Both the position numbers and the translations under genes were made by a program. Below, piece by piece: positions 42,348-45,826 of a stretch of DNA of 64,000 nucleotides. The notes beneath the pieces are model-generated. The model saw only the letters and a list, made by a program, of their open reading frames with translations. It was not told the origin of the DNA and did not search any database. Origin of the DNA: Clostridia bacterium (GTDB taxonomy: Bacteria > Bacillota > Peptococcia > DRI-13 > UBA5745); the NCBI GenBank assembly GCA_018434325.1, contig JAHDPO010000007.1:124001-188000 (forward strand), given 5' to 3'. How positions within the stretch are numbered: the stretch's first letter is position 1; every line of letters starts with the position of its first letter.

Positions 42348-42380
42348 TATATACACTCTTTAGTATCGGAGGTGCGAAAT

Positions 42381-44966
42381 ATGAATACGAATCAATATAC
42401 GCAAAAATCCCGGGAAGCCATAGAGGCCGCCCAAAATTTAGCTCTGGAAAACCACCAGCAGCAAGTGGTTTCCGTCCATCTGCTGACGGCTCTGCTGACT
42501 CAGGAGGGCGGCCTGATTCCCCGTCTCCTGGAGCATAGCCATATAAACGTGGGGCAGCTGCAGCAAAAGGCGGAGCAGCTCATTGGCAAAATTCCTGCCG
42601 TTCATGGCTACGAAAGCAGCCTTTCTATGGATTCCGGCCTGGCCAGAGCCTTGATCAAGGCAGAGAAAACAGCCGCAGAAATGAAGGACAGCTACATCAG
42701 TACGGAGCATCTCTTCCTGGGCCTGCTTCAGGAAGGGGATAAGGACGTCAAGGATTTATTGAAAAATCAAGGCATTACCAAAGAAGCCTTCCTGGCCGCT
42801 TTGAAGCAGGTTCGGGGCAGCCGTCCCATAGACAGCGAAAACCCGGAAGGCACTTATGAGGCTTTGGAGAAATACGGCCAGGATTTAACCAAGCTGGCGG
42901 CGGAAGGAAAATTAGACCCCGTCATCGGCCGGGATGAAGAAATCCGCCGGGCCATGGAAATCCTCTGCCGCCGTACCAAGAATAATCCGGTGCTCATCGG
43001 CGAGCCCGGCGTGGGCAAAACCGCCATTGTGGAGGGCCTGGCCCGCCGTATCGAAGCCGGCGACGTGCCCGAGACCCTGAAAAATAAGCGGCTGATCTCC
43101 CTGGATATGGGGGCCTTGATTGCCGGCGCCAAATACAGAGGAGAATTTGAAGAAAGGCTGAAAGCCGTATTAAAAGAAGTCTCCTCTTCCGAAGGGGCTG
43201 TCATCCTTTTTATCGACGAGCTGCATACCGTAGTGGGCGCCGGCGCCGCCGAGGGTGCCATGGATGCCGGCAACCTGTTAAAACCCATGCTGGCCCGGGG
43301 CGAGCTGAAGGCCATCGGCGCCACCACTTTGGACGAATATCGCAAGCATATCGAAAAGGATGCCGCTTTGGAACGCCGCTTCCAGCCGGTGATGGTCAAT
43401 CCGCCTTCCGTGGAAGATACCATTTCTATCCTGCGGGGCCTCAAAGAGCGCTACGAAGTTCACCACGGCGTCCGCATCAAGGACAGCGCCTTAGTGGCGG
43501 CGGCCACCTTATCGGATCGCTATATCGCCGACCGCTTCCTGCCGGATAAAGCCATCGACTTGATGGACGAAGCCGCCGCCCATCTGCGGACGGAAATAGA
43601 CAGCATGCCTACGGAGCTGGATGAGATTACCCGTAAGGTCATGCAGTTGGAAATCGAAGAAGCGGCGCTAAAAAAAGAAACGGACCACATCTCCATGGAA
43701 CGGCTGCAAAAACTGCAAGCCCAGCTGGCCGATTTGAAAAACGAAGCCGCCGCCATGAAGGCCCAGTGGGAGACCGAAAAAGAAGCCATTGGCAAGACTC
43801 AGAGCATCAAGCAGGAAATTGAAGACGTTAAATTGCAAATTGAGCGGGCGGAGCGCAATTACGACCTGGAAAAAGCCGCAGCCTTGAAATACGGCCGGCT
43901 CATCGAGCTGACGAAACAATTGCAGGCCGAGGAGACGAAGCTGGCAGAGAAGGCTCAGGCTTCTTCCCTGTTGCGGGAAGAGGTGGGCGAAGGCGATATT
44001 GCCGAAGTCGTCAGCCGCTGGACGGGCATTCCTCTTTCTAAACTGATGGAAGGGGAGCGGGAAAAGCTCCTGCACCTGGACCAGCTGCTGCACCAGCGGG
44101 TAATCGGCCAGGAGGAAGGCGTTCAGGCCGTAGCCGACGCCGTGCTGCGGGCCCGGGCCGGCATCAAGGACCCCCGCCGTCCCATCGGCAGCTTCATCTT
44201 CCTGGGTCCTACCGGCGTGGGCAAAACGGAACTGGCCAAAGCGCTGGCCCTGGCCCTCTTCGACGATGAGCGCAGCATGGTGCGGCTGGATATGTCGGAG
44301 TATATGGAAAAGCATGCCGTCTCCCGGCTGGTGGGCGCCCCTCCCGGCTACATCGGCTACGACGAAGGCGGCCAGCTGACAGAAGCGGTAAGGCGTCATC
44401 CCTACTGCGTCCTGCTGCTGGATGAGATCGAAAAAGCCCACGGCGACGTTTTCAATATCTTACTGCAAGTTCTTGACGACGGCCGGCTCACCGATTCCAA
44501 AGGCCGCACCGTTGACTTCAAAAACACGGTGATCATCATGACCTCCAACATCGGCAGCCAGGAAATCCTGGAAGCCAAAGGCCGCTACGAGGACATCAAG
44601 GAGCGGGTCAGCAGCCTTCTCCGCCATTATTTCCGGCCGGAGTTTCTCAACCGGGTGGACGAAATCGTGGTTTTCCACGCCTTGCAGGAAAAGCAAGTCA
44701 AAGATATTGCCGGCCTGCTGCTTAAGGAAATGGACCGGCGGCTGCAAGAAACGGCCAGGATCAGCTTATCCTGGAGCGATGAAGCTCTGGCGGAGCTGGC
44801 CCGCCGGGGTTACGACCCGGCCTTCGGCGCCCGGCCCCTCAAGCGCTTGATTCAGCAGGCTTTGGAAACGCCGCTGTCCCGGCTGATGATCCAGGATGCG
44901 GTGAAGCCGGGCCAGGAAGTCAAGCTGGTCATGGATGAAGGCCGGCTGGCCGTGAAGCCGGCATAA
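42381..44966 (+). CDS. clpB: ClpB disaggregase chaperone
   Basis: The 861-residue protein has the N-terminal Clp repeat domain (1-150), a first AAA+ module with [15 protein letters not shown] (about 206), a long coiled-coil middle domain (about 410-525) that distinguishes ClpB from ClpC, and a second AAA+ module with [15 protein letters not shown] (about 610) and the C-terminal [11 protein letters not shown] sensor. It resolubilises aggregated proteins with DnaK. The start at 42381 has GGAGGTG 7 bases upstream. It is alone in its unit. The last two sense codons fall in a 10-bp tandem repeat. Confidence 0.97.
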
Positions 44967-45002: not shown

Positions 45003-45218
45003 CCCCTGCACTTTGCTTTGTCCTTTAACCGCTATAGCGTCAAAAATAGCACAATAGATAGCACAATAGAATCCCCCGCCAGGCTGACCAATGTCAGTTT
45101 AGATAAGGATCAAAGGAAAAAATGGAAAGTGGCAGGATAGTTACCGCCTGTGCCCTGGGGGCAGTGACCGCCTGTGGCTGGGGAGCAGTGATCCTTAGGC
45201 GGTTCTGTCCTACGGGCT

Positions 45219-45314
45219 CAATCCTGCAGATTCAATCCTGCAGATTCAATCTGCTATCCGCAGATCCTGGGGCGCAGATGTTCTGCTATCCGCAGATCCT
45301 GGGGCGCAGATGTA
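45219..45314. repeat. Nested tandem repeats inside the MITE-like element
   Basis: A 14-bp unit AATCCTGCAGATTC occurs twice in tandem, followed by two copies of a 32-bp unit beginning CTGCTATCCGCAGATCCTGG (45251-45282 and 45283-45314) that differ only in the last base. A looser repeat of ACCGCCTGTG..TGGGG.GCAGTGA lies at about 45147-45192. Confidence 0.8.
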
Positions 45315-45533
45315 CAATTTTTGCGTTTGTATGTGTTTTCCGGATTCGGCCTGTACAATTTTTGCGTTTGTGGGTGAATTGCAGCAGCAGCAGAGGCCTA
45401 TTTTAGCCAAATCGAGGTCTGTTTTGTGCAATTTCTTCGGTTGTGAGGGAATACTTCCCCTGCATTTCACCTACAAACGCAATTTTTGTACACCCTGCCC
45501 CGGCCAATTGACCACAACCGCAATTTTTGTACA
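45311..45533. repeat. Four or five copies of the dispersed TGTACAAAAATT-type repeat
   Basis: Two plus-strand copies (TGTACAATTTTTGCGTTTGT at 45311 and again at 45352) and two minus-strand copies (CTACAAACGCAATTTTTGTA at 45471 and ACCACAACCGCAATTTTTGT at 45511) face each other, with a weaker copy at about 45425. TGCATTTCAC next to the copy at 45471 matches the flank of the copies near 15.78 kb, so homology extends to about 35 bases. Confidence 0.72.
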
Positions 45534-45826
45534 AGCCACCGCCGCTAAGGGTCCGCTAACAGCATACCGGGAGTCATCGCTGTATTGTTCTATTGACGCG
45601 GCGCCGGCCAATGCTCTATGAATTCGCCAACTTTTTGCTTATCTAAATGACATTGGTCAAGGCTGACGGGGGATTTTCTATAGCAAACTATTGAAGATCA
45701 GCCTAATTTCCCTTAAAATTAAACTATACATGCAGAGGCAGAGTTAAGGGCCTTGCTCTTTTGGCAGTGAATAGAAGTTTTAAGTGGTTTGGCACTTGTA
45801 ATATCAATATTTCAGGAGATGTGATT

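Follow-up and report, generated by a model that had tools for sequence, protein, structure and literature searches.

MITEs of insertion sequence (IS) families are a known kind of bacterial mobile element, and although an autonomous partner in the same genome is common, it is not strictly required of them, because partner transposases are often lost. IS231A, of the IS4 family, prefers special DNA, transposon ends included, and makes duplications of 10–12 bp. The short interspersed palindromes of the REP/BIME and Correia/RUP/BOX type, which lie between genes, are much shorter or have other terminal inverted repeats (TIRs). Members of the IS4 subgroup share the end signature -AATR--------WTW---- and direct repeats of 10–13 bp (De Palmenaer et al. 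2008, PMC2266710, Table 1); that paper describes some elements of the subgroup as markedly target-specific, and its text makes no mention of terminators as targets. The Bacillus mobile insertion cassette MIC231, cited there together with the insertion sequence IS231, is an IS4-family non-autonomous cassette with a passenger gene, and the IS231 subgroup has CAT ends. The BrickBuilt MITE of Porphyromonas gingivalis (PMC4596501), present in 10–20 copies, combines a minisatellite with long stem-loops between genes; its TIRs are of the IS5 type, and in the described case the neighbouring terminator is undisrupted.

The element described here lies in a window of 64,000 nucleotides (the whole stretch of DNA that was analysed) and resembles each of these systems in part. 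Its ends, CAATGTCATTTAGWTAAG, carry the -AATR...WTW signature of the IS4 subgroup, its duplications of about 10 bp lie close to the range of that subgroup, and an intact element with the same TIR encodes a DDE_Tnp_1 protein, but unlike the IS of that subgroup it has no transposase itself. Like MIC231 it is a non-autonomous cassette, with CAATG ends and no gene; like BrickBuilt it has a minisatellite and long stem-loops and sits between genes; and its IS4-type ends and duplications set it apart from the REP/BIME and Correia/RUP/BOX palindromes. We assign a probability of about 0.86 to the reading that it belongs, as a non-autonomous element of MITE type, to the IS4 subgroup of the IS4 family and favours terminator hairpins as its target. 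This choice of target, and the presence of a parasite of its own, are what is unusual. The features of the locus are as follows.

42372–44966, plus strand: gene with the split terminator, an open reading frame of 864 aa whose sequence suggests clpB.
45046–45057 and 45058–45069, no strand assigned: 12-bp tandem duplication, ATAGCACAATAG twice, in host DNA outside the element.
45071–45088, plus strand: 5' arm of the predicted, split clpB Rho-independent terminator; the rejoined flanks fold, and the structure is intact in the sister genome.
45089–45107, plus strand: left TIR, CAATGTCAGTTTAGATAAG, with one inserted G relative to the 18-bp consensus; multicopy, and fitting the IS4-subgroup end signature.
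45139–45186, plus strand: 24-bp tandem repeat in two imperfect copies.
45222–45313, plus strand: minisatellite stretch, including an exact 32-bp repeat present twice (45250–45313), with separate matches in the own genome (query 183–274).
45310–45536, plus strand: 227-bp palindromic core with five boxes TGTACAATTTTTGCGTTTGT, recurring with a sharp 225-bp extent in dozens of copies.
45638–45655, minus strand: right TIR, CTTATCTAAATGACATTG, 18/18 to the consensus CAATGTCATTTAGATAAG.
45656–45679, plus strand: 3' arm and T-tract of the predicted clpB terminator, GTCAAGGCTGACGGGGGATTTTCT, from the rejoined flanks and the comparison with the sister genome.

The first-pass annotation had placed a 616-bp element at 45066–45681 with TIRs of about 44 bp. 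The element is real, but its borders are narrower. A query of 45040–45710 against the own genome (G000) returned many more copies, the best at 89–93% identity over most of their length and the range of copies at 73–96%, with E-values down to 1e-222, a recurrence beyond chance. Matches of the longest copies end at query 50–52 and 613–617, that is, at 45089–45091 and 45652–45656; the mobile unit is therefore the 567 bp from 45089 to 45655, the only part that recurs elsewhere. The true TIR is 18–19 bp long, and, searched as a pattern, it matched 15 times forward and 18 times in reverse, a control pattern 5 and 0 times. We rejected the 44-bp TIR since the outer parts, 45071–45088 and 45656–45679, do not recur with other copies and are unsplit in the sister genome; they are the arms of the clpB terminator, and the repeats had looked so long because the true TIRs stack on them.

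Other elements of that annotation held up. Inverted ends, inner tandem repeats (of 24 and 32 bp) and opposing motifs are all present, though the motif, put at 20–35 bp, measures about 20 bp; this box occurs five times, three forward and two opposed. As it had also stated, no transposase lies inside: a check of the open reading frames within 45089–45655 found neither a transposase nor any credible gene. The 12-bp tandem outside the left end is likewise there; its counterpart in the sister genome is a single related copy. Minisatellite units also form element-free arrays elsewhere, at L028 (about 1500–1630), just upstream of a gene resembling an ANTAR-type regulator, and at L035 (about 1300–1500).

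One sign of mobility is an empty site. In a genome of the same genus (G004), the clpB orthologue is 98% identical over the last 320 aa, and the orthologous sequence beyond it, AATAGAAATCCCCCGCCGGGCTGCCGCTGAAAATATGCTTCAGCTAGCCTGACGGGGGATTTCTAT, lacks the element and folds into a terminator-like hairpin that is unsplit (−43 kcal/mol, z −8.6). In the window, the host DNA directly outside the element, ATCCCCCGCCAGGCTGAC and GTCAAGGCTGACGGGGGATTTTCT, does not recur with other copies on either side, and when the flanks are rejoined they form a hairpin followed by the T-tract ATTTTCT. As judged from the sequences, the element has split what is predicted to be the host's own clpB Rho-independent terminator. 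The 5' arm ends in CCAGGCTGAC (45079–45088), the left copy of an imperfect target duplication whose right copy is CAAGGCTGAC (45658–45667); the two agree at 9/10, two bases off, and this duplication is not fully separable from the symmetry of the terminator arms. Downstream of clpB in G004 (L216, reverse strand, 2680–2990) lies a further palindrome, whose paired boxes, GAGCAAAAATGCAGGTTTGTTAG, are spaced 43–44 bp apart; its architecture is that of the MITE core, its sequence another, and its family has 90 matching stretches in G004 and is nearly absent from G000.

Duplications are clearer at other copies. They match at 10/10 in L196, 9/10 in L007, 8/8 in L002 and L003, 7/7 in L201 and, after allowing for nested insertions, 9/10 in L006, so that six copies show duplications of 7–10 bp that are perfect or have one mismatch: 10 bp in the clearest copies, 7–9 bp recognisable in others. 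A TIR-bounded, multicopy unit of less than 1 kb with such duplications, no transposase gene and an empty orthologous site is a bacterial MITE, as the proposal of a non-autonomous transposable element had anticipated. Its TIR is neither unique nor fixed at one place in all relatives: among 60 genomes searched (the own genome and relatives), clear copies occur in the own genome, where they are numerous, and in the one sister species G004, and two others gave short, weak matches only. A plasmid search found no relative.

Does the element choose terminators, or do terminators merely spare it? The target set comprised 11 two-ended copies in G000 and G004; the final statistic excludes L069, a site of low quality, and L010, an end of which is degenerate. 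A purpose-written script predicted the terminators, and stricter thresholds were adopted because a loose criterion had a background of 35% (139/400). At the rejoined insertion point, 8 of the 11 sites carry a hairpin and T-tract at ΔG ≤ −14 kcal/mol, against 9.9% of 900 random intergenic window positions (p = 1.1e-6); at −17 kcal/mol the figures are 7/11 and 4.4%. L006, L029 and L063 are not in strong terminators. L007 and L005 are model cases, the insertion lying at the foot of the 3' arm, directly before the T-tract, and most of the one-ended copies examined in the own genome border such structures (L008, L009, L011, L012, L015 and L020, for example). The excess could reflect survivorship, insertion being random and only insertions between genes at gene ends being tolerated, and the copies whose surroundings were examined do occupy intergenic or gene-end positions, with convergent genes on either side of the clpB copy. 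Yet the control positions were themselves intergenic, the insertions fall within a few bases of an arm or loop, and in some orthologous regions each species received an insertion of its own, so we regard survivorship as an unlikely explanation. Four orthologous intergenic regions are occupied in both species (L011/L286, L027/L241, L030/L204 and L021/L039) by elements that differ in subfamily, position or orientation, which indicates that the same gene ends were hit repeatedly, as repeated targeting predicts.

Two further readings concern the core, the best-kept part of the element, which matches 44 stretches of G000 and 37 of G004, mostly with the same sharp limits and often without recognisable TIRs. 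Its boxes begin at about 45311, 45352 and 45425 (forward) and end at 45492 and 45533 (opposed), with 41 bp between the members of each outer pair. In L034 and L037, TGTACAAAAATTGCG replaces TGTACAATTTTTGCG in the first box: TTT has flipped to AAA within an otherwise conserved box, which frees the pairing of the opposed boxes from the usual TTT/TTT mismatch. Conservation of the core at full length and about 70–95% identity in dozens of copies, even where TIRs are gone, would suit a structured non-coding RNA gene, be it the whole unit or its core. A transcript could indeed fold on itself, as had been suggested, since both strands beat shuffles (z −7.2 and −5.4), and paired cells reach 94.6% against 92.5% in pair shuffles. 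However, substitutions to G.U and to A.C are about equally frequent (71 and 63 cells), giving no sign of a transcribed strand; compensated cells are more numerous on an alternative, non-hairpin pairing of the boxes (43, axis 311) than on the hairpin axis (30); the covariation that a structured RNA family should show, specific to one fold and strand, was not found among the core copies; and no Rfam family exceeded its gathering score, all matches being far below threshold. On these substitution patterns, a DNA motif in repeated copies explains the boxes better than an RNA fold under selection; the long self-complementary RNA proposed at first as a function is thus not borne out, and an RNA gene is the least probable of the alternatives. 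Only slightly less improbable is a host-maintained regulatory or nucleoid-binding array, a five-box protein site for which TIR mobility would be secondary. Such an array would fit the retention of every one of the five boxes and the many copies in which the core has outlasted the TIRs, but there is no known binding protein, the different subfamilies at orthologous sites point to turnover rather than host retention, and only one of the relatives searched has clear copies.

Returning to the MITE itself, its ends serve as a target in turn. Flanks of L006, L017, L031 and L270 share a palindrome of 130–133 bp bounded by GATTCGGGTGTCAAAAG; these 17-bp TIRs are the same throughout the complete copies, apart from two differing positions at the right end of L270. 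In every complete case found, this second element lies inside the TIR of the MITE, in the order CAATGTCAT, element, ATGTCATTTAGATAAG, and ATGTCAT is duplicated (7 bp); both ends of L006 carry such an insertion. When G000 and G004 were searched by pattern, all exact or one-mismatch ends of the second element adjoined a MITE or core copy, and truncated second elements (L284, L286, L287 and L289) also lie beside such copies. A longer TIR of about 78 bp, considered for L006, L017 and L031, was dropped, as the 130-bp element has its own duplication. The sequences suggest a target-specific parasite of the MITE that lands almost only in MITE ends. We speculate, tentatively and with more doubt than belief, on a nest of three, in which terminators would receive the IS4-type MITE, the TIR of the MITE would receive the 130-bp element with its 7-bp ATGTCAT, and the core would be a protein-binding array needed for transposition.

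Which transposase moves the MITE? Intact relatives were sought with a TIR scan of GTDB contigs, and full-length elements with the same TIR exist in other genera: one in Blautia (L110) of 1612 bp, with a 444-aa transposase matching PF01609 (DDE_Tnp_1, E = 1.9e-26), and one in Pedobacter (L153) of 1447 bp, with a 10-bp duplication and a 444-aa open reading frame without a Pfam match. The same scan returned many small two-ended elements. Those of 76–180 bp with the same IS4-type TIR (L097, L133, L101, L105, L129 and others) occur in many Clostridia and Bacteroidetes, and several of those in Clostridia adjoin a TGTGAATAGTAAC-like motif. Terminator preference is weaker in other taxa: same-TIR elements in other phyla are not generally in hairpins (median rank 0.275), and we gave up the idea that it is a trait of all same-TIR elements, as hairpins account for only part of the 20 sites examined in other taxa. 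In the own genome (98% complete, 70 contigs), searches found neither a PF01609 protein nor a good match to the Blautia transposase, and the single PF01609 protein of G004 was rejected as a partner on a scan of its surroundings (L190), where no good TIR match was found. Several contigs of the own genome end inside copies of the element. The partner may have been lost, may lie in an assembly gap or may be too divergent to detect; as far as the assembly shows, the family is orphaned in its own genome.

We propose the following model. An IS4-type DDE transposase, supplied in trans, would recognise the 18-bp ends and insert the element by cut-and-paste through staggered cuts about 10 bp apart. Rho-independent terminator hairpins would be its favoured targets, usually at the loop or at the 3' arm adjoining the T-tract, and the attraction would probably be the hairpin or the bendable DNA of GC stem and T-tract, beyond survival alone. 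In the window, such an insertion would have split the clpB terminator, and the TIRs abut its arms and look too long because of this split. The terminator is probably weakened, its T-tract now lying 567 bp further on, presumably at little cost, given that the neighbouring gene is convergent.

Our search of the open literature turned up no paper on the targeting of terminators by an IS or MITE, no account of an IS4-type MITE with terminators as its main target, and none of a second element confined to the TIRs of such a MITE; this absence concerns a limited, open literature and is no proof of novelty. If IS4-type elements do choose terminator hairpins, this would be a safe-haven strategy, gene ends being ubiquitous and insertion there rarely lethal, and it would tie mobile elements directly to changed transcription read-through between genes. 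A large transposase family would also gain a target rule that can be tested (a GC stem with a T-tract), and the second element, landing only in MITE ends, would add a bacterial example of a parasitised parasite.
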